Origin: Victivallaceae bacterium
Lineage (GTDB): Bacteria; Verrucomicrobiota; Lentisphaeria; Victivallales; Victivallaceae
Assembly: GCA_024405735.1 (NCBI GenBank)
Contig: JAKSOF010000003.1
Location: 62,001-126,000, forward strand
DNA length: 64,000 nucleotides
Reading direction: 5' to 3'
This document shows positions 1 to 16,392 of the stretch, one piece after another. The position numbers and the translations under genes are program-made. Numbering within the stretch: position 1 is the first letter of the stretch; each line of letters begins with the position of its first letter. The notes below the pieces were generated by a model. The model ran no database searches. It was not told the origin of the DNA and worked only from the letters and a program-made list of their open reading frames with translations.

Positions 1-2765
1 ATCTCCGGCAGATATTTCACGCCTTCACGCATTTCTGGAGTATTACCAAGCGTCCAGTTCCCGAGCGCCGTCAGAATCTCGTCTCGCGTATAATTGGCAT
101 GAAGTTCCAGCGGGCAATCAAATGGCAGATTCGGCTTTACGGTGACGAGGTCGGTGTTTTCGTACAGATAATCCACCAGTTCTAACAGTTCATCATAAAA
201 AGGCCCATTCGCTTTCAGGCGCGCGATGCTCTCCGGCAGAGATTGGATCTCCGAATTTCGCGTCCAGAGACTGAAGTGGAGCATGGTCAGCAATCTTGCC
301 TCATCTTCAGAGAGGTGATGTAATCTCTCGGCCGGAGCTCTCAGCAGTTCCTGCAGCGTTTTGAGCTGGTATGCGGAGTTCATGTGACAGATGCGCAACA
401 GCCCCTTTCTCAGTCGATCTTCATCAGGGATCGTGAAATCCTCACGCAGATTTGCCTTCTGGCAGAGTCGGGTAAACAGAGCCTTTTGATAGATTACGCT
501 CGGCCGCAGATGATGATAATCGAGGAAATTTGACAGCGTCAAATCTCTGCCGGACTCGCTTGGGAAGGTGGCGATACGGCTGACGATCATGCTCTGACGG
601 CCGTTGCTGATGCTGCCCTGAATATTGGCCAGAATCCGCCGTTGCGCTTCTTTTTCCAGTTCGATATGGCAGCCAGCCGGGAGATGCGGGAACCCATGCT
701 CCAATTCATCCGCCACATTTTGCCCAGACGCCCCCAACATTGCCCGGAACCGGTATTCGAAATTGAAGTTTCTGTGCGCATTGCCGACAAAGTCCAGCAC
801 CGTCAGGCACTCTTTATCGTCACTCAAGCGCAGACCACGTCCGAGCTGTTGCAGAAACACGGTCAGGCTTTCGGTCGGCCGCAGGAACAGCACCGTGTCG
901 ATCTCCGGAATGTCCACGCCTTCGTTATAGAGATCCACAACGCAGATCACGTTGATCTCCCGCTGGCGCAGCCGCTGCTGAACCGTGTTACGCTCTGACG
1001 CGGGGGAATGGGCCGTAAGCACCGCCGAATGAACCCCACGATCGTTGAAAAATTTGTTCATGAACTCCGCGTGGTCCTGGCTTACGCAAAAGCACAGCGC
1101 CCGGCACTTCGAGATGTCGAGCAAAATCTCCTGCATCTTCTGCAGGACGAGGTTGGCGCGCATAAGGTTGCCGCTGAAAACATTGTTCAGCTGCGTCTTA
1201 TCGTAACCGCCATTGGTCCAACGGAGCGTGCTCAAATCCACACAATCGCTGATCCCGAAATACTGGAACGGCGACAGCAGTTTTTTGTTGATCGCATCCG
1301 GAAGGCGAATTTCCGCCGCGATGTGATAGTCAAAATACTTCAACACGTCCAGCCCATCGTGGCGCTCCGGGGTGGCGGTCAACGCTAACAGGTATTTCGG
1401 AGTGAAGTGCTCCAGCAGTTCCTGATAACCGTTCGCCGCTGCGTGGTGGAACTCGTCGATGATAATGTAGTCATAGTAATCGGCGGGCAGCTTTCGACAG
1501 AGGTCGTTGGAGTTGAGGCTTTGGATCGAACAGAAGAGTTGATCCAAACTTTCCGGGCGGTACGTGCCGACCAGCAATTCCCCGAAGTTCTGATCCCGCA
1601 GAATTTGCCGGAAGGTGATTCGGCTTTTGGTCAGAATTTCCTCCCGGTGGACGACGAATAGGAACTTGGCGTGCGGATGTTTTTTTAACACCCGCTTGAA
1701 GTCGAAAGCCGCGATGACCGTTTTCCCTGTTCCGGTGGCGGCGACGACGAGATTCTTGTTGCGTCCGTGTATTTCACGTTCGGCGCGAATCTTGTCGAGG
1801 ATTTCCTCCTGATACGGGTATGGCGTCACGTCCATGAACACCATCGTGCTGTTATCCTCCCGGTCACCTCCGGCCTCGTGCGTCAGAGCTTTCGCCAGTT
1901 TATCGCGGGAAGAATCGTCGTAGCGGGAAAACTCCGGCGTGTTTTGATAGGTCTCAAAGGTGGCACAGACCTTGTCCCAAAGGTACGGGGATTCAAACTG
2001 GCTGATCTTGAGATTCCATTCGAGGCCGCTGGTGAGCGCCGGAGCCGATATATTGGAGGAGCCGATATAAGCGGTTCCGAAGCCGTTTTCCCGGTGGAAA
2101 ATATAGCTCTTGGCGTGCAGCCGTGTGCGCTCCGTGTCGTAGGAAACCAGCAGTTCGGTATTGGGGAGCGTCTGCAGCTCGTCCACGGCCTTGAGATCGG
2201 TTGCTCCGAGGTAACTGGTGGTGATGATCCGGAGCTTCTTCCCATCCGACGTGGCTTCTTTCAAATACGGCAGCAGGAGACGCAGTCCACTCCAACGGAT
2301 AAACGAACACAAAATGTCGATGCGGTCGGCGGTTTGGATCTCTTTTTTGAGCTCGCTTTCCAGCGTGAGATCGGAAGCGGTCCCGGTAAACAGCGCAGCA
2401 TTGGTAAGTGGGGTGTCGGGGCGCGACAGCGGTTTCTTTGTCCGGTCCTGAATCTTCAACAGATACATCAGGTCCTCGACAATCTTTTCCGCTTCCACAG
2501 GGAAAGAGGAATCATTTTGCCCGATCACCTCCAAAAGCTGATTGCAGAATTGCGCCTGACGTTGTTTCTTATCCTCGCCTTTGATGCTGGCGAGCGAATT
2601 GGCGATCAGCTTAGTCAGGTGCAGCGCCAGCGCGAACGAGCTTTCCTCGGAATCAAGCTGATTTTTCTCCACGTCGAAGCTGTCGGAGATCCGGCTAAGC
2701 CGTTCCTCCAACGCGCGCGTGATAACGCTTTCATATATGCCATGTATCAGCCTGAATTCCGCCAT
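1..2765 (-). CDS. PLD-nuclease / SF2 helicase / DUF3427 protein (partial, 3' end outside window)
   Basis: This is a large open frame from the ATG at 2765 to the window edge, with no stop or frameshift in about 920 codons. The N-terminal third has a phospholipase-D-like nuclease motif (HAKSYIF followed by GSSN). An SF2 helicase core follows: Walker A AATGTGKT, DEFH box, LTATPE and QQLGRGLR. The remainder matches the layout of DUF3427 helicases. Such proteins are frequent in defence islands and are predicted to translocate on and cut DNA; that role is inferred here. The start lies 3 bp after the stop of the GIY-YIG gene, so the two are translationally coupled. The helicase is the last visible gene of a minus-strand operon. 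Confidence 0.85.
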   Translation of the reverse strand, partial: MAEFRLIHGIYESVITRALEERLSRISDSFDVEKNQLDSEESSFALALHLTKLIANSLASIKGEDKKQRQAQFCNQLLEVIGQNDSSFPVEAEKIVEDLMYLLKIQDRTKKPLSRPDTPLTNAALFTGTASDLTLESELKKEIQTADRIDILCSFIRWSGLRLLLPYLKEATSDGKKLRIITTSYLGATDLKAVDELQTLPNTELLVSYDTERTRLHAKSYIFHRENGFGTAYIGSSNISAPALTSGLEWNLKISQFESPYLWDKVCATFETYQNTPEFSRYDDSSRDKLAKALTHEAGGDREDNSTMVFMDVTPYPYQEEILDKIRAEREIHGRNKNLVVAATGTGKTVIAAFDFKRVLKKHPHAKFLFVVHREEILTKSRITFRQILRDQNFGELLVGTYRPESLDQLFCSIQSLNSNDLCRKLPADYYDYIIIDEFHHAAANGYQELLEHFTPKYLLALTATPERHDGLDVLKYFDYHIAAEIRLPDAINKKLLSPFQYFGISDCVDLSTLRWTNGGYDKTQLNNVFSGNLMRANLVLQKMQEILLDISKCRALCFCVSQDHAEFMNKFFNDRGVHSAVLTAHSPASERNTVQQRLRQREINVICVVDLYNEGVDIPEIDTVLFLRPTESLTVFLQQLGRGLRLSDDKECLTVLDFVGNAHRNFNFEYRFRAMLGASGQNVADELEHGFPHLPAGCHIELEKEAQRRILANIQGSISNGRQSMIVSRIATFPSESGRDLTLSNFLDYHHLRPSVIYQKALFTRLCQKANLREDFTIPDEDRLRKGLLRICHMNSAYQLKTLQELLRAPAERLHHLSEDEARLLTMLHFSLWTRNSEIQSLPESIARLKANGPFYDELLELVDYLYENTDLVTVKPNLPFDCPLELHANYTRDEILTALGNWTLGNTPEMREGVKYLPE

Positions 2766-2768
2766 AAA

Positions 2769-3626
2769 TCAATCTCCGGATTGCTCTTTCTTTGCCTCGA
2801 TTTCCTTAAGAGACTTGCCTTCGGCATTTTTCCAGTGCGCAGGACCAGAGATGCTGTAGCCTGTCAAGAAATCGGCCGCAGACGATGGGCTGGAAAAAAG
2901 AATATTTTCGGTAGTTTTGAAGTTCAAGATTTTTCCATCCTCGGAATATTTTTTCCGGAGAACAACGATACCTTTATTCAAAGATTTCTCGGATACCTTT
3001 TCGTTCAGAATTGCTCCTGCCAGCACAACAAATCCATCTGGCGTCCGGACCCCTTCCGCGCTTACGTTGCCTTTCTTAAAAAAGAAGTGTTCTTCCTGAT
3101 CGGAGTTGTTCGACGTTGTGATAATGGGCTCAAAAATGCGATGCCCCAACGCTCCAACTAACACCAGAACATGTTCAATAAATTCTTCCAATTCCGCCTG
3201 TTCTGGTTCGGAAAGCGCAGGTTGTGGTGGAATATTCCCGTTTTCTACCTTGTAACGCCTGGCGGCGATTGCCAGTTCATGACAACGACTTTCAAGGTAT
3301 TTTACATGCGCCTTATTTAGATTTTTATCTTTGCTGATGAACGTTATTACTTCGTTCCAAAAATCCTTACCCTCCAAATGCTGGCATAGGCGCGAAAATA
3401 CATTTTCAGCCTCTCCGATATAAACGCGAGGAGTTCCAGTTTCGTCGTCTCTTCCAAGCAAAAAGTAAACTCCGGCTTGATTTAATTCTGCTCTGTTGGC
3501 ACATTCTTTTAGCTTCGTGCGAGGGATTTTGTATGCTTTACCAGTCCAATTTGAAAGCTCACACGTCCAGCGCCCGCTGGGAGTTCCATCCATCAAGAAT
3601 AGAGTGATTTTCTTGCCATGTATCAT
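2769..3626 (-). CDS. GIY-YIG nuclease family protein with DUF4357-like C-terminus
   Basis: The protein has about 285 residues. A GIY-YIG core is visible in the first half (GVYFLLGRDD, then VYIGEAENVFSRL), followed by a helical segment. The C-terminal part (around FLTGYSISGPAHWKN) resembles the DUF4357 module often joined to GIY-YIG domains. The predicted activity is metal-dependent DNA or RNA cleavage. A GTG lies two codons upstream, but the ATG at 3626 has better spacing from the purine-rich AGGGCGG. It sits between a GHKL ATPase gene (88 bp upstream) and a helicase gene (3 bp downstream) in one operon. Its codon and base use are AT-richer than the chromosomal genes to the right. A defence role is inferred from context only. 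Confidence 0.8.
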   Translation of the reverse strand: MIHGKKITLFLMDGTPSGRWTCELSNWTGKAYKIPRTKLKECANRAELNQAGVYFLLGRDDETGTPRVYIGEAENVFSRLCQHLEGKDFWNEVITFISKDKNLNKAHVKYLESRCHELAIAARRYKVENGNIPPQPALSEPEQAELEEFIEHVLVLVGALGHRIFEPIITTSNNSDQEEHFFFKKGNVSAEGVRTPDGFVVLAGAILNEKVSEKSLNKGIVVLRKKYSEDGKILNFKTTENILFSSPSSAADFLTGYSISGPAHWKNAEGKSLKEIEAKKEQSGD

Positions 3627-3713
3627 TGTCACCGCCCTGCCTATGTGATATTTTCAGTATTTTATCTATTCCATGCCGTTACCAACTCCAGTTCCAGTCG
3701 CGGTAATAAACCG

Positions 3714-5792
3714 TCATACTGTTGGTAGACCAAGTTTCTCGAAGAAAGCGCTATTCCGTTTATTCGCGTCCAACAATAGTTTGTCAAAGGAAATAACTTC
3801 GATGTAAGCTGAATAATTTGAATTATATCCGAAAAAACCCATTTTGTCTGGCGTTTCGGATAGTCCTATTAATTTCGCTCTTTTTACGACTGATGGGGTT
3901 AAATCCGAAAGGATATAACAAAATCCTGGTATGTTTTGTGCGTTATTTATGGGACGCCCTGCTGCTGTTTTTGCTTGGCCGTCCCGAATTTCCTGCAAAT
4001 AGGTCAACGCTTGTTCTATCGGATCTTCTTCTGCTCCCGATTTTGCATCATTACGCATAGGCCTCTTAAATTCAATGATAGTTAATGAGGCAGGACAGTA
4101 GTTTTGGGCAGGAGGGTTTACGAGCAGCGGATTATCATACAAGTCGAGCACGCAAATATCCGGTTCTTTTTTTGAGCAAGAGTCGGTTATAGGCATTGAC
4201 TTTATCGGGAGATCGGATGCCAAATATTCGTGAAAAGCAAGACGTTCATCGATAACCCACAAATTGGCATTGTCGCTATGAATTTCTCCGGAATCATTTT
4301 GCATGGGCATTATTATTTGATGAATAATATCTTCTCTCGGATACTTCCCTGTTTGCGGATCGCACGAAATCGCTTTTTTCAAAATATCCAAAATTATTCT
4401 TCTATGAAAAACATAATTTGCCAAATCAGACTCCTTTATGTCTTTCGATTTCTCCATGTAAGATTTCAATCGCAGAGAGTATGTCGAAAATGAATCATTG
4501 ATTTGAGGTTTTAGTATGTCATGTCCTTCTCTTATTAGATCTGCTTCCAACTCCATCAGGCGTTTATGTAGACTAAGCTCTAATTCACGATCGGATATCG
4601 TCGGATCAATATACCGTTCGTTTTCAGAAAGATGTTTGACGATTGAACGATAACGAGGGGCCTGATAATTGACAAACTTTGTTAACCTCTCTTTGCTTGC
4701 AGATTCATTCTGTGTTAGCGCCTCCCCAAGATAACATTTCGTCTGCGCCAAAACAGAGCCGATGATTTTATCTAATGATATTTCTGCATTTTGAGCAAAA
4801 AGGCCGCTATCATCTGTAGTTAACGGAATATCAAAGCTGGTACGCTCTGGGCGAACATTTTCATCCAAATATTTGCCAGACACATAACATGCATAGGTAA
4901 ATGATCCATTCTCGTCGGAAATCTTATCAAACAGTCCGGGCAATTTCCCCTTGACCGGAACGACCTGCACAAGCCTTTCCCCTGCGCAAAGGTACAGGGA
5001 ATGGGATATATCCATTTGTCTCGTTCGCATTTTTATATGAGTTATATTAAACTCCCGCCCGTCAATATATAGGTTTTCTGCAGAGCAGTCATCCTTGCTC
5101 CCCATCATTGTATCAAAAAGATCTTGTAAAACGATGCGTTCATCATCGTCGACAATCTCAATATCGGGAGCCCCCCCTGGGCGCAAAAAATACCACGAAC
5201 AGTGTGACAACATTGCTTTTGCAATGGCCTCGACTGTTTTTGCCACGGCTTTTTGATATTGCTTTTTGAATCCATACAATTCAACGCAGCATCCTGGGTC
5301 TTCAGAAACGATATCATCTGTAGGATCAGTCATGCCCATTTCGGTAAATTCAAATGTGCGTTTGTGCCGTTGTCCATCCGCCCCCATGAAAACACTGGAT
5401 ATTTTTGCGCCGATGAATGCCTTTAGCCAAATAATCCGCCCAATTCCCCGGCATCCACGATTTGCTTTTAGTAGAGAATCAAATTCTTGAAACGACTGCA
5501 GGTTTTCATCATTAAAGCCAATCCCGTTGTCGTAGATAATAAAGCCGGTGATTTCTCTGTGCGGATCAGGCCCCCTCTTTTTTGCTTCAGCCTCTGAAAA
5601 AGTTTTCTGAGCAGACCGTTGGATTTCAACTCGAATTTTCCCCGGTGGAGTCTCTCCGCGATCTTCGATTGCCTGTATGGAGTTTACGACAGATTCAAAA
5701 ACAGGCATTAAGCCCTGCTGAAACGGCAAGTTTGTGTTGCGGAGCCTACCGGCCAAGCTACTTGTCATCGGTTTATACTGTTTCTGCCCCAT
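3714..5792 (-). CDS. GHKL (HSP90/MutL-like) ATPase with C-terminal PD-(D/E)XK-like domain
   Basis: The protein has 692 residues. The N-terminus carries GHKL ATP-binding motifs: an N-box with E33 and N37 (FESVVNSIQAI), DNGIGF at 88-93, and a glycine lid GCRGIGR near 113-119. The middle is helical. Near residues 545-576 the pattern PDICVLD ... IIEFKRP followed by QALTYLQEI looks like a PD-(D/E)XK nuclease core, which I infer from spacing only. I chose the ATG at 5792 because GGAG stands 8 bases ahead; a TTG 27 codons upstream has no such support. It is the first full gene of the minus-strand operon with the GIY-YIG and helicase genes. I recognise the family as an undescribed ATP-binding protein type. 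Confidence 0.8.
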   Translation of the reverse strand: MGQKQYKPMTSSLAGRLRNTNLPFQQGLMPVFESVVNSIQAIEDRGETPPGKIRVEIQRSAQKTFSEAEAKKRGPDPHREITGFIIYDNGIGFNDENLQSFQEFDSLLKANRGCRGIGRIIWLKAFIGAKISSVFMGADGQRHKRTFEFTEMGMTDPTDDIVSEDPGCCVELYGFKKQYQKAVAKTVEAIAKAMLSHCSWYFLRPGGAPDIEIVDDDERIVLQDLFDTMMGSKDDCSAENLYIDGREFNITHIKMRTRQMDISHSLYLCAGERLVQVVPVKGKLPGLFDKISDENGSFTYACYVSGKYLDENVRPERTSFDIPLTTDDSGLFAQNAEISLDKIIGSVLAQTKCYLGEALTQNESASKERLTKFVNYQAPRYRSIVKHLSENERYIDPTISDRELELSLHKRLMELEADLIREGHDILKPQINDSFSTYSLRLKSYMEKSKDIKESDLANYVFHRRIILDILKKAISCDPQTGKYPREDIIHQIIMPMQNDSGEIHSDNANLWVIDERLAFHEYLASDLPIKSMPITDSCSKKEPDICVLDLYDNPLLVNPPAQNYCPASLTIIEFKRPMRNDAKSGAEEDPIEQALTYLQEIRDGQAKTAAGRPINNAQNIPGFCYILSDLTPSVVKRAKLIGLSETPDKMGFFGYNSNYSAYIEVISFDKLLLDANKRNSAFFEKLGLPTV

Positions 5793-5850
5793 AAACGAAT
5801 CTCCGTTCAGATTAAAAGTCCCATTGCCATCCGTTTGTGTAATTGCCAGA

Positions 5851-6111
5851 TCACCGTTTATACCGTGTGGCAAAGCGCCGCTTCAAATTGTGACTTGGCC
5901 GCCCACAGCTCCGAAGATCGGAGACTGTGAGCCCGGTTTCCTCGCGCACCTCGCGGATCACGGATGCGACAACGGTCTCGCCCGGCTCCACGTGCCCACC
6001 TGGGAACGTTAGCCCACTCCACGGGTTTGTGGGCTTCGGCAGGCGATCCTGTACGAGCACCCGCCCGAGAGAGTCGCTGACCATACACATATTGCAGAGC
6101 TCGGTTTCCAT
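5851..6111 (-). pseudogene. Truncated Nudix (MutT-like) hydrolase
   Basis: This is an 86-codon frame with a complete Nudix box (GX5EX7REVXEEXG around GGHVEPGETV and REVREETG). Such enzymes hydrolyse oxidised or non-canonical nucleoside triphosphates. MutT-type proteins usually run to about 130-160 residues, but here the frame stops about 30 residues after the box, so the C-terminal strand and helix are missing. The end lies 58 bp before the start of the GHKL ATPase gene, in the same direction. No continuation is visible in the other two frames. I read it as the remnant left when the ATPase gene was joined on; a functional mini-Nudix is less likely. Confidence 0.6.
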
Positions 6112-6221
6112 AGCCTTACCTTATCGCAAAAATTCCATATGGATATACTGCCGCGAGACAAGGAAAGCAACGCGTGATGGCGTTTTTTTTGAAAAAAAAA
6201 GCATCCGGGCACGATTCGAGA

Positions 6222-6249
6222 TTGTAATTGCCGCCGACACTACTATATT
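6222..6249 (+). promoter_or_regulatory. Probable promoter of the HindIII-like RM genes
   Basis: TTGTAA at 6222-6227 and TATATT at 6244-6249 are separated by 16 bp. They lie 35 bp before the start codon of the restriction gene. No controller-protein gene is visible nearby. Confidence 0.5.
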
Positions 6250-6284
6250 AAAGGGTGGTTTTGTAATTAATCTGGGAGATTGTT

Positions 6285-7235
6285 ATGAGCGATACATTTT
6301 TTATCCAAAAATTCGTAGATTTGCAATTTTCTTCAGGGCGGCAGATTGATCACGAACTGATTGCCCGAGAATTTCTTCAAAAGATAGACAAGGAGATGCA
6401 TCAACAGCGGTTTGAAGATCTCCTGATCATTTCCGGTTTTATTCCCGATCTTTATCCCAGCGATTCCAGCGAAGAAACGCTTTTTTCAAAACTTGTCGAG
6501 TGCTTGGTTGCTGAGTGGGCAAGAAGAATGGGTTTTTTAGGAGAAATAATAAAGCAAAAAGCGAGCTATGAAGATATTAGAATCACAATCGGCAAGAATG
6601 TCGTGGTTTGTGATGCTAAAAGTTTTCGTCTGGGGAGGAGCCAGCAAGCTCCCAATGCGAAAGACTTCTTGAAACTTGAAGATATTCGTAAATGGATGGA
6701 TCGGTATCCGGCCTCCATTGGGGGACTGGTTACGTATCCTTGCAAGCATGAGTGGACAGGGAAAAGTGATATATACCAGTATTGTAGTACGAAAGACGCC
6801 CCTACCGTCATGCTCCCGTATAAGTATTTGGCATTTTTGCTTCATAATAAGTCTTCGTATGACACTTCGGATTTAATCCAACTTTGGGATTATGCGCGCA
6901 TTTTCCCCAATAAACTGACAAAAGATATGCCAGGAGGGAACAGGGTCGCGTACTGGAAACAGATCGACAAAGAGATTGTTCGAATCACAAAAACGTCCGC
7001 TGGGGATTTGGTTGCGTTCATGAGTAGAGCAAATACCCTTATTGCTCAATGCGTCGCGGAAAATGAACGGGCACTCCAATCTACAAAACAGCAGATTATA
7101 ACAAGGATCATGGATGAGGTCGGCCAAGAAAATAATATTGCCATTATAAAAAACAAGTTGATCGAATATATGGTTAAGACGGAAACGACTGAAATCGACC
7201 AGATGCTCAGCCGAATAAGGGACTTTAGACAGTGA
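6285..7235 (+). CDS. HindIII-family type II restriction endonuclease
   Basis: The protein has 316 residues. A PD-(D/E)XK active site is visible: D97 in YEDIRI, then DAKSFRLGRS with D110 and K112. R.HindIII has the same local sequence, DAKSFRLSR, with catalytic D108, D123 and K125. The shared ETLFSK-type segment ahead of it and the LPYKYLAFLLH stretch behind it also fit HindIII. The expected target is AAGCTT, which is inferred from family and not shown here. The ATG at 6285 has GGGAGA upstream. A DNA methyltransferase gene follows 85 bp downstream on the same strand. Both genes are AT-richer than their surroundings, which suggests horizontal transfer. Confidence 0.85.
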   Translation: MSDTFFIQKFVDLQFSSGRQIDHELIAREFLQKIDKEMHQQRFEDLLIISGFIPDLYPSDSSEETLFSKLVECLVAEWARRMGFLGEIIKQKASYEDIRITIGKNVVVCDAKSFRLGRSQQAPNAKDFLKLEDIRKWMDRYPASIGGLVTYPCKHEWTGKSDIYQYCSTKDAPTVMLPYKYLAFLLHNKSSYDTSDLIQLWDYARIFPNKLTKDMPGGNRVAYWKQIDKEIVRITKTSAGDLVAFMSRANTLIAQCVAENERALQSTKQQIITRIMDEVGQENNIAIIKNKLIEYMVKTETTEIDQMLSRIRDFRQ

Positions 7236-7320
7236 TCAGTTCTTGTAATTTTCTGCTTGCAAAAAAAAAGGAACTGATATATACTGTGAACCATATCTTT
7301 TGGTCGAGGAGCACCTTATA

Positions 7321-8244
7321 ATGGAAAATAACAGAATATTTAATGAAGACTCGATCGTGGGGGTGCAAAAAATACCTGCGAATTCTGTGCATTTGATATT
7401 AAGCGACATTCCCTATGGGATCGGGATGGATGATTGGGATGTCTTGCATAATAACACCAACACCGCTTATTTGGGGACGAGTCCCGCCCAAGAAAAAGCA
7501 GGAGCTATTTTTAAGAAAAGGGGAAAGCCTTTAAATGGTTGGTCTGAAGCGGACAAACAAATCCCTCATCAATATTATGAGTGGGTTTGCTCCTGGGCCC
7601 CGGCATGGTTAAATTGTCTATGCCCGGGAGGAAGTGTTTTTGTTTTCGCTGGAAGAAGATTTGCACATCGCTGTATCGTTGCCCTTGAAGATTCCGGTTT
7701 TATTTTCAAAGACATGTTGGCATGGAATAAATCTCATGCGCCATTACGAGCACAAAGAATTAGCCAAGTTTATATGCGTCGGAATGACGCCATAAACGAA
7801 GAAAAATGGCAAGGATGGAGAGTCGGGAATTTGGCACCAGTTTTTGAACCTATCTTATGGTTCACGAAACCTTATAAAATAGGTGGAACTCTGGCTGATA
7901 ATATCATTCAATATGAGCTGGGCGCTTATAATCAATTCGCAATAGAACGGTATTGTGGAGAAAATAGCAATATTATTTCAATGCATGGAACAAAGAAAGA
8001 CTTTGGTTTGCACCCGACACAAAAACCCGAAAAGTTAATGGAATTTTTGATCGAATTAACAACGATAAAGGGACAGACGGTTTTAGATCCTTTTGCAGGG
8101 AGCGGAACAACACTCGTTGCAGCGCTTAAGCTGAAACGACAATATATTGGGTTCGAAAAAGAAAAATCCTATTTTGACATAGCCCAAAAACGTCTGGAAG
8201 AAGAAGAAATTAACATGAAATCGACTTTACTTCCAGACGTATGA
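7321..8244 (+). CDS. HindIII-type DNA adenine-N6 methyltransferase
   Basis: The protein has 307 residues. Motif IV, SDIPYGIGMDDWDVLH near residue 28, precedes motif I, DPFAGSGTT near the C-terminus. That order is typical of beta-class adenine-N6 methyltransferases. HPTQKPEKLM before motif I is also usual. The DIPYG variant of DPPY and the DDWDVLHNNTNTAYLGTSPA stretch recall M.HindIII. It should protect the same site that the adjacent endonuclease cuts. A TTG at 7300 is in frame, but GAGGAG ends 9 bases before the ATG at 7321, so I use that ATG. Both key motifs are intact, so the pair looks functional. Confidence 0.85.
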   Translation: MENNRIFNEDSIVGVQKIPANSVHLILSDIPYGIGMDDWDVLHNNTNTAYLGTSPAQEKAGAIFKKRGKPLNGWSEADKQIPHQYYEWVCSWAPAWLNCLCPGGSVFVFAGRRFAHRCIVALEDSGFIFKDMLAWNKSHAPLRAQRISQVYMRRNDAINEEKWQGWRVGNLAPVFEPILWFTKPYKIGGTLADNIIQYELGAYNQFAIERYCGENSNIISMHGTKKDFGLHPTQKPEKLMEFLIELTTIKGQTVLDPFAGSGTTLVAALKLKRQYIGFEKEKSYFDIAQKRLEEEEINMKSTLLPDV

Positions 8245-8259
8245 TTTTTTTGCAATCTG

Positions 8260-8476
8260 TTACTCAACTTCCATGTACATTGCCCACTTCTCCAGCAGGC
8301 GATAATAGTCACCCCGTATGGCCTCGGCGGTGAACTTGTCGATCTCCTGCCGGGAAAGGCCCCGAGAGCGCACCAGCGCCCCCCCCGCCTAACACAAAGA
8401 AGGCGTTTCCCTGCTCGCCGGAAGGGGCGGTTAGCAGCGGACCACCGGAAATTATCGGCTCCGTCTTGCCCCGCTG
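8260..8476 (-). pseudogene. Decayed small plasmid/phage-type gene
   Basis: A coherent C-terminal reading (ALVRSRGLSRQEIDKF ... WAMYMEVE, stop at 8260-8262) connects to an upstream reading (EPIISGGPLLTAPSGEQGN, FFVLG) only if one G is removed from the eight-G run at 8379-8386. No ATG opens the upstream frame; it begins directly after a TGA at 8477-8479. Small proteins with the layout SGEQGN..(F/V)LG..ALVRSRG occur in plasmid and integrative-element cargo and have no known function. I call this a frameshifted remnant, though a sequencing error in the homopolymer is possible. Confidence 0.45.
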
Positions 8477-8527
8477 TCACAGAATCCCCATAAAGGCATC
8501 ATACGCTTCACTGAGATCTTCTGGGAG

Positions 8528-8746
8528 CTAATACCCCAGCATTCCGATCCCGGGGAAGTTGTAATCGCCCCTCCGGATCGCCTCGTGATCGGCCTCGACC
8601 GCCTGCCGGTAGTCCTCCCGCTGGCGCTCCTTCTCGGCGCAGACCATGCAGATGACCTGCGTGTTGAACATGCTCATAATCCGGCCGCCCGATAGATCGG
8701 CCCCGCACCGGTCGCAGCGCTTCGCGTCGAAAAAGTGATCCCGCAT
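8528..8746 (-). CDS. Small zinc-ribbon protein of mobile elements
   Basis: The protein has 72 residues. The ATG at 8746 has GAGGAA nine bases upstream; a TTG seven codons earlier lacks a site. Two CxxC pairs (CDRCGADLSGG and CMVC) with an intervening MSMFNTQ stretch form a likely zinc-binding ribbon. Proteins of this type recur beside small plasmid and phage genes and have no assigned function. After its TAG the same frame reads on as LPEDLSEAYDAFMGIL before a TGA at 8477-8479. The stop may therefore be recent, or another short gene may follow. Its start lies 1 bp before the stop of the next upstream gene. Confidence 0.6.
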   Translation of the reverse strand: MRDHFFDAKRCDRCGADLSGGRIMSMFNTQVICMVCAEKERQREDYRQAVEADHEAIRRGDYNFPGIGMLGY

Positions 8747-8747
8747 C

Positions 8748-9140
8748 TTATTTTTCCTCCTCGCCAATCACCACGTCGAGCTCATGCCAGCCGGGATCGT
8801 TGTACAGGCCGTAGACCAGCCAGTGCCCCGCGTCGTATATATAAAGGTAATCGGCCCCGAAGTCGGCCTTGCCTTTGCTCTGATATTCCTCCTCCGTGGC
8901 GAAGCAGCTCGCCGGGACCAGCTTTTCGCCGCGATCCCGGTGGTACGCCACGCAGGTCTCCAGCGTCTCCCCGATCTCGCAGAGGTTGCCGAGCGCCAGC
9001 AGTGCCTCGACCTGCTCGGAGGTCTTGTACCAGCCCCCGAGAATCGCTCCGGCATACCCCGGATACCCGTCCCAATGGAGGTAGATCGCTTTCACCGCTC
9101 CATCCGCCTGCTTCATTCCAATTCCTGCTCTCGTTGCCAT
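8748..9140 (-). CDS. Hypothetical mobile-element protein (130 aa)
   Basis: The ATG at 9140 follows GGAGAC with good spacing. The N-terminus (MATRAGIGMKQADG, then AIYLHWDGYPGYAG) matches a small-protein family that I recall from plasmids, prophages and integrative elements. Its function is unknown. The C-terminus is acidic. It is soluble, with no signal peptide or membrane segment. It overlaps nothing and runs into the zinc-ribbon gene in the same direction, so the three small minus-strand genes at 8528-9638 probably form one transcript. Confidence 0.65.
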   Translation of the reverse strand: MATRAGIGMKQADGAVKAIYLHWDGYPGYAGAILGGWYKTSEQVEALLALGNLCEIGETLETCVAYHRDRGEKLVPASCFATEEEYQSKGKADFGADYLYIYDAGHWLVYGLYNDPGWHELDVVIGEEEK

Positions 9141-9188
9141 TTTGTCTCCTTTCTGGCCGGGGATCGCTCCCCGGCCCCTCGTGTTTGA

Positions 9189-9638
9189 TCAGAAGTTGTG
9201 GTCGTAAAAGTATGCGCAGGTGTCGCTCAGGACCCCGAGCTTCTCGAAGGTGGTTTTGCGCTTCCCGCCTTTGGTCATCTCGTAAAGCCAGATGTAACCG
9301 TCCGCGATCTCCGCGTCCGGGGCGTTGCGCTTGCTCTCGATCCACTCGGCCTTGCAGCCCTCGACCGGGAGCGCCAGGGAGATCACCTCGTGCCGGAATC
9401 CCCAGATGCCATCTTTGTTGCGCCGGATCGGGAAAGGCTTTCCTGCGATCACCGGCTCGGCTGCGTCGAACTCGCGGTCCAGGTCCGGGCAGTTCCCGGC
9501 GAAACCGCCCGGGACCATCTTCGGCCGGATGATCTTCTTCACCGGGGTCGCCATCGCCGTTCCCCGGGCCTCGTCGATTTCGGTGACCAGCCAGCTCTCG
9601 ATGTCCGTGTAAATCCGCTTGTTGATGAACTTCGCCAT
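9189..9638 (-). CDS. Hypothetical protein (149 aa)
   Basis: I do not recognise a defined domain. The start at 9638 has a strong AGGAG site about 7 bases upstream. The protein is soluble and mixed in charge. The N-terminus MAKFINKRIYTDIESWLVTE and the C-terminal half (DGYIWLYEMTKGGKRKTTFEKLG) look like a compact mixed alpha/beta fold. It is the first gene of the minus-strand trio of small element-borne proteins. It diverges from the replication gene across a repeat-bearing gap, so the region between may hold both promoters. Confidence 0.55.
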   Translation of the reverse strand: MAKFINKRIYTDIESWLVTEIDEARGTAMATPVKKIIRPKMVPGGFAGNCPDLDREFDAAEPVIAGKPFPIRRNKDGIWGFRHEVISLALPVEGCKAEWIESKRNAPDAEIADGYIWLYEMTKGGKRKTTFEKLGVLSDTCAYFYDHNF

Positions 9639-9794
9639 TTCTTATCTCCTTTATTATTAAGGCGTTGCCTGTTGTTCTGTGCATACATTATCATGGATTT
9701 TAGCATTAGCCAGTCGAATTTTTTGGCATAATTGCTTTATTTTCAACTATTTGTAGATTTTCTTCGCTTGCATGGGATCGTGGCGCCGAAAAAG

Positions 9795-9950
9795 ATTCCG
9801 GTTTTTTTCGCAGAGCACTACACCATTCGGCTCTTTTTTGCAAAGATACTCGATTGGAGCTGGCCGTTGCGATGTGGATGAAAAAATCGAGTTTTTTTTC
9901 ACAGATCGCTCCACCACTCGGGCATTTTTTGCAAAGATACTATGTGGAAG
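9795..9950. repeat. Two imperfect direct repeats ahead of the PrimPol gene
   Basis: Unit 1 lies at about 9795-9856 and unit 2 at about 9884-9950. Shared blocks are GTTTTTTTCnCAGA, then an ACnACCAnTCGG-like stretch, then an exact TTTTTTGCAAAGATACT. The offset is about 90 bp. They sit upstream of the replication gene and downstream of divergent small genes. Iteron-like initiator binding or autoregulation is a possible role, which is inference. The rest of the 9639-10068 gap shows no further gene. Confidence 0.6.
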
Positions 9951-10068
9951 GTGGGCTTCACAGACAACAACAGGCGAAAGGAGTGTGCTATGGAGAAAAC
10001 CTGACATGGTCAAGGGAAAGTGAAATCGAAACAATAACCAGAGCTCTGTGAGCTCAGAAAGAGATTCA

Positions 10069-12063
10069 ATGAAAGACAAGGCATTATTTTATCTGAAAAC
10101 CGGCCTGTCGGTGCTTCCGGCGAAGCGGGAGAGCAAACGCCCCGCGATCGGCGGCTGGAAGACCTATCAGGACCGGCTGCCCAGCCAAATGGAAGTGGAG
10201 ACGTGGTTCGCCAATGCGCACGATGCGCTGTGTCTGGTCTGCGGAAAGGTCTCCGGGAATCTGGAGGTCATCGACTTCGACAACCACGGTGAACTGTTTC
10301 CGAAATGGAAAGAGTTCATTTCTGCCGATCTGCTGGCCAAGCTCGTGATCGAACAGACGCCATCTGGCGGCTTCCACGTCGCATATCGGGCCGCGTCGCC
10401 GGTCTGTGGCAACATCAAACTGGCGCAGGGGAAGCGGGAGGACAAGCTCCAGACCCTCATCGAAACTCGCGGTGAAGGCGGCCTGTTCCTGTGCGCTCCC
10501 TCGGAGGGATACACGCTGCTCCAGAACGATTTCTCGGAGATCCCGACGATCACCGACGAGGAGCGAGAGGACCTGCTCAGCGCTGCCTATGCGCTGAACG
10601 AGCACACGCCCGAGGCCCAGAGCGCTCCGGTCCCGGTCGGGCTTTCCGGCGACTTTGCGATCCGGCCCGGGGACGACTATAACGCTCGCGGCGATTTCCG
10701 GTCGCTGCTCATCGCATACGGCTGGACTCCGTTGCACAAGGCGGGAAAGAACGAGTATTTCCGTCGCCCGGGAAAGACCTCTGGCGGCCAATCCGCGAGT
10801 TTCAACGGCGAAGTGTTCTACGTCTTTTCCAGCAACGCGGCTCCGTTTGAGCCCGGGGCATACTCTCCGTTCAACGCCTATGCGATCCTGGCGCACAACG
10901 GCGATTTCTCTGCGGCCGCAAACGAGCTGCTGGAACAGGGCTTCGGGAAACCTGCCGAGCAGCCGGGCGTGGATATTTCCGGTCTGCTTTCTTCTCCGGC
11001 AATACAGCCGGAAAAACCGAATCAGCAGCTTTTGACGGCCCGGGAGCTGATCCAGGGGTACCGGACCATGAAAGAACCGCTGATCGACGGTCTGCTTCGC
11101 CGTGAAGAGGTGATGAACATCGTCGCTGCGCCAAAGACCGGCAAGTCGTGGCTGGTCATGCAGCTTGCGTTGGCGCTGGTGTCGGGAGGTTTTTGGGCCG
11201 GACGGGAGTGCACGAAATCGCGTGTGCTTCTCGTCGATAACGAGCTGCACAAGGAGACTCTCTCCCATCGCCTGTATCATGTTGCCGAGTCAATGGGGAT
11301 CATGGAATACGACGAAATTCTGGACGACCTGATCATCCTCCCGCAGCGGGGCGGAGAAAAAGAGCTGTCCCGGTTGCAGATGTGGCTGCAGGGATATGAT
11401 GGTCCCGGTTTCGACGTCGTCATCATCGACGCGTTGTACAAAGCGCTCCCGAAGGATGTCGACGAGAACAGCAACGGGCAGATCACCTCTGTATATAATA
11501 TGTTGGATCGCTACGCTCAGGAGATGAACGCGGCCATCATTCTGGTGCACCACACCAGCAAGGGCAATCAGGCGAACAAGAGCGTCACTGATGTCGGATC
11601 GGGCGCTGGCGCGCAGTCGCGGTCGCCGGACACCCACCTGACGTTGCGTCAACACAGCACTGAAGGCGTCGTTTCGGTATACTGCTGCGTCCGCAGCTTT
11701 CCCCCGGTTGCCCCGTTTTGTCTGCGTCGGGATGAGAACAATCTGTGGACACTCGCGCCGGAAGAAGATCCGGAGGCCCTGGAAGGGAAAGAGACTGGTC
11801 CCTCTGCGCAGGCTCGCAAACGCCGGATGACGACAGAGGATGTCGCTGAAACCATCGCGGCGAACCTCGACGACATTAAATTCCCGATGGGGAAAACCCG
11901 GCTGGTGGAGACGATTCGGGATAAGTTCAAAGCGTCCAAAGCTAAAATTGAGGTGGCGCTGGAGCTGCTTTGTGAACAGGAGCTTTTGGAGGTGCGCAAT
12001 GGTGATCCCGAAAAGAAGCAGCAGGCCATGAAGTGTTTTTATCGAAAGGAGGCGGCCCAATGA
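10069..12063 (+). CDS. PrimPol (bifunctional DNA primase/polymerase) with RepA-like AAA ATPase
   Basis: The protein has 664 residues from the ATG at 10069; a GTG seven codons earlier is also possible. The N-terminus has archaeal-type PrimPol motifs: VIDFD (metal site), TPSGGFHVAY, and TLIETRGEGG. Next to it, from about residue 330, is a RecA/RepA-like ATPase with Walker A APKTGKSW, Walker B VVIIDALYK and a VHHTSKG loop. A charged C-terminal helical part (from about 590) may be a winged helix. Together these could prime and unwind the element's DNA. This is the normal replication gene of an autonomously replicating or integrative element, and it sits alone on its strand. Confidence 0.85.
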   Translation: MKDKALFYLKTGLSVLPAKRESKRPAIGGWKTYQDRLPSQMEVETWFANAHDALCLVCGKVSGNLEVIDFDNHGELFPKWKEFISADLLAKLVIEQTPSGGFHVAYRAASPVCGNIKLAQGKREDKLQTLIETRGEGGLFLCAPSEGYTLLQNDFSEIPTITDEEREDLLSAAYALNEHTPEAQSAPVPVGLSGDFAIRPGDDYNARGDFRSLLIAYGWTPLHKAGKNEYFRRPGKTSGGQSASFNGEVFYVFSSNAAPFEPGAYSPFNAYAILAHNGDFSAAANELLEQGFGKPAEQPGVDISGLLSSPAIQPEKPNQQLLTARELIQGYRTMKEPLIDGLLRREEVMNIVAAPKTGKSWLVMQLALALVSGGFWAGRECTKSRVLLVDNELHKETLSHRLYHVAESMGIMEYDEILDDLIILPQRGGEKELSRLQMWLQGYDGPGFDVVIIDALYKALPKDVDENSNGQITSVYNMLDRYAQEMNAAIILVHHTSKGNQANKSVTDVGSGAGAQSRSPDTHLTLRQHSTEGVVSVYCCVRSFPPVAPFCLRRDENNLWTLAPEEDPEALEGKETGPSAQARKRRMTTEDVAETIAANLDDIKFPMGKTRLVETIRDKFKASKAKIEVALELLCEQELLEVRNGDPEKKQQAMKCFYRKEAAQ

Positions 12064-14307: not shown

Positions 14308-15648
14308 ATGAAAGAAAACACACCTAAAACCCTGCGCTGCGCGATCTACACGCGCAAAAGTCACGAACTCGACTTGGAGCAGGATTTCAACACCCTCGAC
14401 GCCCAACGCGATGCGAGTGAGAACTATATCGCCAGCCAGAAGGCAAACGGCTGGTTCTGCATGCCGGAGCGTTACGATGATGGCGGCTTCTCCGGAGGCA
14501 ATCTGAACCGTCCTGCGCTGCAGCGGCTGCAGGACGACATCCGCGCCGGTCGGATCGACATCGTGGTGGTCTACAAACTCGACCGACTCACCCGATCGCT
14601 GATGGATTTCAGCGACCTGCAGGAGTTTTTTGACAGCCACGGCGTTTCGTTTGTGTCGGTCACGCAGGAGATCAACACCAGCACCTCGGCCGGGCGCATG
14701 ATGATGAACATTCTGATGACTTTCGCGCAATACGAACGGGAGGTCATCGCGGAACGGGTGCGCGACAAGATCGCGGCGGCGAAAAAACGCGGCAAGCACT
14801 GCGGCGGCTACCCGGTGCTGGGCTATGACTCCGATCCCGTGACCAAGAAGCTGATCGTCAATCCCGAGGAGGCCGAAACGGTGAAGTTCGTCTTCGAACG
14901 CTATCTGGTGCTGGGATCGGCCAAAGAAGTCGCCCGCGAACTGGAAGCCAAAGGCTGTCGTGGCAAAGTATGGACCACGAGAAAGGGGGTCCGGCACGAC
15001 GGACAGAAGATCAACAGTCAGATGATCTACCGGATTCTCAACAATCCCCTTTATATCGGTCGGGTTCCCCACCGCGCCACGACTTATCCCGGTGAGCATG
15101 ACGCGATCATCACGCAGGAGACCTGGGACGCGGTACATACGATGCTCAAGAGCAACCTGAATCACGACAGCACCCGGCGTACCCCGAAGATCAATCCCTT
15201 CGCCGGGAAAGTGTTCTGCGGATCGTGTGGTGGGGCCATGACGCTTTCCCATACCGTCAAGAGCAAGAAGCGCCGGTACAGCTATTACATCTGCCTCGAG
15301 GACCAGAAGCGCAACTTCAGCATCTGTCCGATCCGGAGAATCCCGGCCGAGGCCTTTGAAAAACTGGTTCTGAGCGAGATCGGTACTCTGTTTCAGACGC
15401 CGACCATGCTGGCGGAGCTGATGAGCCGGGACGACTTTCAGATCCCTGCGGGTATTCTTCAGGAGGTCCTGAAAAATATTCACGGCGTCTGGGAGGTCAT
15501 GTGCCCGGCCGAACGTTGCAAATTGATGCAGGCGATCATCAGCCGGATCACGGTCTACGAGGATCGCATTACCATTGAGCCCAATATCGAGGGCCTTAAC
15601 ACGCTGCTGGCGGAAGCCGGAATGGAGAAAGAAAATGAGCAGAATTGA
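14308..15648 (+). CDS. Large serine recombinase (site-specific integrase)
   Basis: The protein has 446 residues. The N-terminal resolvase domain shows YTRKS with the nucleophile S18, then YDDGGFSGGNLNRPALQRL and VYKLDRLTRSL. The recombinase domain follows (GYPVLGYD; ILNNPLYIGRVPHR). A zinc ribbon (FCGSCGG ... C) lies near residue 310 and a C-terminal helical part ends the protein. It should cut attachment sites with a 2-bp core and integrate the island. All catalytic motifs look intact, so the element may still move. It overlaps the next gene by 14 bp and follows the DUF2924 gene by 1 bp. Confidence 0.9.
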   Translation: MKENTPKTLRCAIYTRKSHELDLEQDFNTLDAQRDASENYIASQKANGWFCMPERYDDGGFSGGNLNRPALQRLQDDIRAGRIDIVVVYKLDRLTRSLMDFSDLQEFFDSHGVSFVSVTQEINTSTSAGRMMMNILMTFAQYEREVIAERVRDKIAAAKKRGKHCGGYPVLGYDSDPVTKKLIVNPEEAETVKFVFERYLVLGSAKEVARELEAKGCRGKVWTTRKGVRHDGQKINSQMIYRILNNPLYIGRVPHRATTYPGEHDAIITQETWDAVHTMLKSNLNHDSTRRTPKINPFAGKVFCGSCGGAMTLSHTVKSKKRRYSYYICLEDQKRNFSICPIRRIPAEAFEKLVLSEIGTLFQTPTMLAELMSRDDFQIPAGILQEVLKNIHGVWEVMCPAERCKLMQAIISRITVYEDRITIEPNIEGLNTLLAEAGMEKENEQN

Positions 15649-16317: not shown

Positions 16318-16392
16318 TGGTAGCGGGGGGTGGAATCGGACCACCGGCCTTCAGGTTATGAGCCTGACGAGCTACCACTGCTCCACCCCGCA
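16318..16392 (-). tRNA. tRNA-Met(CAT), probably the initiator
   Basis: The sequence folds as a complete cloverleaf including an encoded CCA. The anticodon loop is CTCATAA. The 5' part GCGGGGTGGAGCAG and the acceptor end resemble bacterial initiator tRNAs. The terminal pair appears to be a T1-T72 mismatch, consistent with an initiator (E. coli has an unpaired C1-A72). Only two of the usual three G-C pairs close the anticodon loop; the third is A29-U41. It has its own promoter and terminator, and the mobile island ends beside its 3' end. Confidence 0.85.

Follow-up and report, generated by a model that had tools for sequence, protein, structure and literature searches.

Do three consecutive genes, each encoding a different nuclease fold and all lying on one strand of a bacterial defence island, form a single antiviral system? 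The question is raised by the left end of the window, the whole stretch of 64,000 nt analysed here (G000:C20:62001-126000, G000 being the genome that carries it), where a preliminary description had proposed such a system. We consider it likely that the three genes are instead one variable stretch of a modular mobile defence island with cassette exchange, and not a dedicated three-nuclease system. Since in the collections searched they are adjacent only in this genome, they look like a patch exchanged into a defence island and not like a new system of three parts.

The three genes and their island

Read from right to left, the minus strand carries the remnant of a Nudix gene (5851..6111; NUDIX 4.5e-15), gene C (3714..5798, 694 aa), gene B (2769..3626, 285 aa) and gene A, whose 5' part occupies positions 1..2765. 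C combines a GHKL ATPase, an S5-like domain and a C-terminal PD-(D/E)XK nuclease, B a GIY-YIG domain and a C-terminal DUF4357, and A a PLD nuclease, an SF2 translocase and DUF3427. The open reading frames, domains and conserved active sites bear out the earlier account of three consecutive genes with different nuclease folds, each from a family associated with defence, and the three proteins look intact. By our assignment A is SauUSI-like, B is PADLOC PDC-S14 and C is paraMORC3/Shedu. About 87 bp separate C from B and, as had also been noted, 3 bp separate B from A. We detected no terminator-like sites on the minus strand between the three genes, in scans that here do not exceed chance. Their collinear order, their close spacing and the lack of such sites mean that they may be co-transcribed.

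The surroundings likewise agree with the preliminary description, which had placed the genes next to a HindIII-like restriction-modification (RM) pair on a mobile island. On the plus strand lie a HindIII-family restriction endonuclease (6285..7235; RE_HindIII 2.6e-68) and an N6/N4 DNA methyltransferase that is probably its partner (7300..8244; N6_N4_Mtase 4.6e-48). This RM pair is a neighbouring module, independent of the trio. A large serine recombinase with Resolvase, Recombinase and Zn_ribbon_recom domains (14308..15648, plus strand) is probably the mobility gene of the island. Together with a replication-type Prim-Pol/AAA protein (10048-12063), its location near a tRNA-Met (16318-16392) suggests that the carrier is an integrative element. 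The island reaches well past the left edge of the window, where three further genes lie downstream of A on the same strand (L002:5929-13573, G000:C20). They encode a 558-aa protein with a Toprim-like C-terminal part (partial RT-Toprim_I-C match; EGKTD at 340, DAD at 401), a 737-aa protein weakly matching SMEK, and a helicase of Schlafen group 3 (PADLOC PDC-S41, 1.3e-269).

Gene A leaves the window, continues for 349 bp beyond its edge and ends at G000:C20:61652, with a full length of 1037 aa. An N-terminal PLD nuclease domain (PLDc_2 6e-8, RE_NgoFVII; HAK at 217-219, then GSSN) is followed by an SF2 ATPase in mid-protein (ResIII 5e-38, Helicase_C 1e-14; GTGKT at 345, DEFH at 437) and by DUF3427 (1.7e-23, residues 838-1027), which is detected in the full-length protein only and not in the part inside the window. 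The HxK, Walker A and DEFH motifs are all intact. The best PDB match is 7clg (1.2e-91), an entry labelled 'putative helicase' that we take for the structure of SauUSI; among PADLOC models, mREase_IV scores best (PDLC03659 1.4e-193; PDLC03658 2.1e-92). Gene A is thus a predicted SauUSI-like type IV restriction enzyme, and alternative assignments to a Mokosh protein or to a type I R subunit were rejected with far lower model scores. It shares with SauUSI the single polypeptide and the order of PLD HxK domain, SF2 ATPase and C-terminal DUF3427, and differs in having about 100 extra N-terminal residues and another best PADLOC model (PDLC03659 rather than PDLC03658). SauUSI is a single protein with ATP-dependent cutting of m5C/hm5C DNA (PMC3874153), and it forms dimers in which the HxK site is composite (PMC7913695).

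Gene B starts with ATG, and an upstream GTG at 3632 is also possible. It matches the PADLOC PDC-S14 model (PDLC04925, 7.6e-114) over its full length (residues 2-282), which places it in this candidate family. In Pfam, DUF4357 is found at 3.3e-13 and the GIY-YIG match stays below the cut-off; the GIY-YIG active site is nevertheless complete: across 15 aligned homologues Y54, Y69-x-G71, R79 and E112 never vary, and N129 is nearly invariant. It was 'guilt by embedding' that led to the proposal of the PDC families, most of which are unvalidated (PMC12988326).

The ATG of gene C lies at 5798, with alternative starts at 5792 and 5768. Single-sequence searches of Pfam, PADLOC and NCBIfam with C gave no confident match, the Pfam SduA_C model (PF14082) matched nothing in the genome, C included, and PDB sequence searches with C or its profile returned chance matches only. 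Alignment of 40 homologues, mostly from viral contigs, shows that the GHKL boxes are invariant (E35, N39; D90, G92, G94; G115, G118, G120, R121). Of the E-D-ExK nuclease residues, E489 and E576-x-K578 never vary, and D547, like Q596 outside the motif, is nearly invariant. In the AlphaFold model (pLDDT 86), the N-terminal part matches Hsp90/TRAP1 (5e-12 over about 420 columns). Foldseek matches of the nuclease domain are weak (5e-2 to 1e-1), with McrC and a repair endonuclease first and PD-(D/E)XK enzymes leading. When compared with seven annotated Shedu (SduA_C/DUF4263) proteins, the nuclease-domain profile scored E 8e-6 in hhalign (probability 84%); controls with shuffled columns or the wrong domain gave E 0.1 to 1. 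The domain appears to be related to Shedu SduA_C, and remotely so, since the single-sequence Pfam search for SduA_C was negative.

Judged by sequence, gene C is a putative paraMORC3, or VcSduA-like Shedu, protein. The paraMORC3 architecture, GHKL plus RE fold, was defined by Iyer et al. in 2008 (PMC2292703). VcSduA (Shedu type I-D), with a GHKL and a Shedu nuclease domain, was reported in 2025 as a single-gene antiphage system acting by direct restriction, and its activity is lost upon mutation of the N-box Glu E27 and the ExK Lys K557 (PMC12137116). C has the same domain order, N-terminal GHKL and then C-terminal PD-(D/E)XK, and differs from Shedu in that the Pfam SduA_C model has no match in it. 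Set beside the published residues rather than aligned with them, E35 and K578 of C correspond in role and spacing to E27 and K557; homologues of C carry E27 and K556 to K558. MutL was rejected as an identity for C, since the ExK nuclease domain is present and a MutL model match is absent.

Occurrence of the three genes elsewhere

We looked for A, B and C in one genome per species, covering 198 genomes of the class and a sample of 388 genomes of the phylum. At E 0.001 the PADLOC model for A lacks specificity across the class, as it picks up any SF2 helicase, and we used matches above about 300 bits. Within the class, full-length C is present in two copies (the window and G043), B in 33 genomes and A in 13. 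A scan of genome contigs with C returned one relative. In the phylum sample, A occurs in 22 genomes, B in 28 and C in seven. Comparison of contig numbers revealed no pair of A, B and C sharing a contig in the class except in G000, and the same holds for the 388 phylum genomes. When G000 is left out, three of these 388 genomes have both A and B, compared to 1.5 expected (P = 0.17), and none has A with C or B with C.

Mobile elements gave the same picture. The plasmid collection holds 18 records with A, 54 with B and 58 with C, and no neighbouring pairs among them; the one record in common carries A and C about 0.9 Mb apart. The flanks of 43 viral-contig C loci contain no A, B or Nudix gene. B on viral contigs was assessed through these flanks, and scans with B alone or with a Shedu protein returned nothing. 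The preliminary description had made its proposal depend on the trio recurring in other genomes. Across the class, phylum, plasmid and viral-contig searches, a dedicated C-B-A system did not recur in unrelated genomes, and we found the trio nowhere beyond G000. The statement that no described system has this set of genes holds for the combination, which is found only here, and fails for the parts. A is SauUSI-like, C is a paraMORC3/VcSduA-like Shedu and B is PDC-S14, so none of them is undescribed.

Each gene has settings of its own. Gene A is usually alone. Gene C occurs alone on many elements, or as the last gene of type I RM operons, with the orders R-AAA-M-S-C in Salinivibrio (L060), R-AAA-M-S-Shedu-C in Vibrio fluvialis (L152), S-C in an Opitutales genome (L003/L219) and S-TIR-C in G043 (L058). 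The V. fluvialis operon thereby places a paraMORC3-type gene beside another Shedu gene, one of the classical kind. In Rhizobium B21/90 (L247), the gene for an ATP-binding protein of similar size lies about 10 bp before a Shedu gene. Agrobacterium Ti plasmids (L157, NC_002377) commonly carry a divergent homologue of C (26% identity), with genes for PIN, trypsin-like peptidase and TIR proteins beside it.

SauUSI-like genes have neighbours of a different kind. A Nudix hydrolase gene precedes them in three lineages, two genes off in G180 (L108), overlapping in G451 (L231:8403-8813) and at 9 bp on a Latilactobacillus curvatus plasmid (L135:6461-6871). A link between nucleotide-pool cleaning and the restriction of modified DNA is possible. 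An HNH_2 gene of about 290 aa adjoins SauUSI-like genes or lies one gene away from them in G451 (L231:8827-9693) and G414 (L236:8363-9238), and its product is possibly a recurrent partner.

Type I RM operons include or adjoin gene B in G183 (L040), Parabacteroides (L065), G326 (L237) and G420 (L238). In Acinetobacter baumannii ZW85-1 (L250) the type I order is M-S-B-R, with B 40 bp before HsdR, and in Rhodococcus GA1 (L251) B is 3 bp before HsdR. It overlaps a DEAD/DEAH helicase gene, encoding a large SF2 helicase, in Rhodococcus fascians (L248), and lies beside another, convergently, in Rhodothermus (L249). Schlafen-type helicases are neighbours in G163 (L044), where B is 6 bp ahead of the helicase gene, and in G098 (L054); an N6/N4 methylase gene adjoins B in G186 (L052). 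About ten other loci examined have no recognisable defence neighbour of B. Since its neighbours elsewhere include type I RM, SF2 and Schlafen-type helicase genes, B is a plausible accessory next to ATP-driven motors. While other PDC-S14 genes often lie with type I RM operons or other helicases, in the samples searched a SauUSI-like neighbour is found only here.

This distribution bears on the possibility that B and A work together as a two-gene unit, with B as an accessory of the SauUSI-like enzyme and C as an unrelated neighbour. The 3 bp gap between them is matched by the close placement of B before HsdR in Rhodococcus GA1 and Acinetobacter ZW85-1 and before the helicase gene of G163, and by its overlap with the helicase gene of R. 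fascians. However, none of the other A loci has an adjoining B (0 of 12 in the class, 0 of 21 in the phylum sample and 0 of 18 plasmid records), and in G180 A sits behind other genes. We regard such a unit as possible, if rather unlikely. It is compatible with a modular island, which leaves the coupling of B to A open.

Probable exchange of segments within the island

G180 is a genome of the same genus (contig C61, L108). It aligns with the window in separate blocks, and the segments between them are unrelated. The shared blocks comprise part of gene A (window 2050-2768, 95% nucleotide identity), the start of the Nudix gene (5903-6229, 85%) and two stretches to the right of the RM pair (8285-8553, 81%; 8544-9948, 93%). 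Between A and the Nudix gene, G180 has neither C nor B, and instead has genes for an ASCH and kinase-like protein and for a GNAT protein. The RM module was likewise swapped in place, HindIII-type enzyme and methylase (window 6230-8284) versus EcoRV and a D12-class methylase (L108:3801-5742), flanked by homologous sequence of 81-93% identity.

The Nudix gene is full-length in G180 (168 aa, L108:3174-3680), as compared to an ORF of 86 aa in the window, which keeps the first ~76 of ~168 residues. The homology ends at 5903, where the cassette of C and B begins. Given the block homology with G180, the other genes in between and the Nudix homology stopping at 5903, the C and B stretch is best read as an exchangeable cassette. 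Its arrival, or a later event, would have truncated the Nudix gene. Further relatives carry other arrangements. In G141 a gene for a HEPN/RES protein separates A from Nudix, and in G185 a copy of B (70% identical) immediately precedes Nudix, from which it follows that B itself also moves.

The Nudix family is present in 26 of the 198 class genomes, across 16 genera and in many defence settings, next to SauUSI-like enzymes, Schlafen-type helicases, HEPN/RES and PDC-S14 genes. Further loci of the family are L096:4555-5040, L139, L140 and L145. The Nudix gene behaves as a mobile accessory gene.

A recently recombined island could also hold decayed or silent passengers, some of them already broken, and the Nudix gene truncated at residue ~76 next to C fits such a state. 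We consider this improbable for the trio, since A, B and C are full-length when compared with their homologues and keep all conserved active-site residues. Least probable, and in our judgement very unlikely, is a single complex in which the GHKL protein would be the sensor, A would translocate with its SF2 motor and all three nucleases would cut one target. It accords with the collinear order, short gaps and lack of intervening terminator-like sites, and with the GHKL (MORC) genes that adjoin SF2 helicase genes, some of these helicases having an HKD/PLD nuclease domain, in RM operons (Iyer 2008, PMC2292703). Against it, the trio is found together nowhere else in the collections searched, and in G180 a different cassette separates the counterparts of A and the Nudix remnant. 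C occurs on its own or with type I RM, A usually on its own, and VcSduA (PMC12137116) and SauUSI (PMC3874153) each act as the product of one gene.

Possible roles of the parts

The modular island that we favour would have a local framework in common with G180, made of A, the Nudix gene and an RM module, with C and B sitting where G180 has two other genes. While domains, active-site residues, synteny and the lack of co-occurrence in our samples are direct observations, we infer expression, activities, targets and the role of B. C and A are most likely independent, largely self-sufficient single-gene defences. C would act alone, as VcSduA does: its GHKL dimer would close upon ATP binding in response to a phage DNA or protein cue, and closure would license the C-terminal PD-(D/E)XK nuclease. 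A would also act alone, in the manner of SauUSI, with DUF3427 reading modified cytosine, the SF2 motor translocating with ATP and the dimeric PLD domain cutting.

B may be an accessory that is coupled to A here. It would be an auxiliary GIY-YIG endonuclease, of a kind often found beside translocating restriction enzymes, and its DUF4357 tail is probably, at a guess, DNA-binding. Lying 3 bp from the start of A, B is probably translated with it and could add a cut to DNA engaged by A. A gene combination seen a single time can be functional nonetheless.

These results indicate that tight spacing and a shared strand are not enough to turn genes of a defence island into a multi-gene system, and the comparison with G180 marks the boundaries of the cassettes almost to the base. 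Gene C extends the GHKL-Shedu family to a further phylum, and its relatives connect this family with type I RM operons. Most worth pursuing is gene B, a candidate that has hardly been studied and that recurs beside unrelated ATP-driven restriction enzymes. We tentatively suggest, as an idea more doubtful than not, that B is a general add-on nuclease, which couples to ATP-driven restriction motors as diverse as type I HsdR, type III, Schlafen-like and, here, SauUSI-like type IV enzymes and thereby raises cutting or blocks phage escape. If this were true, the pair of B and A would be the first type IV example.
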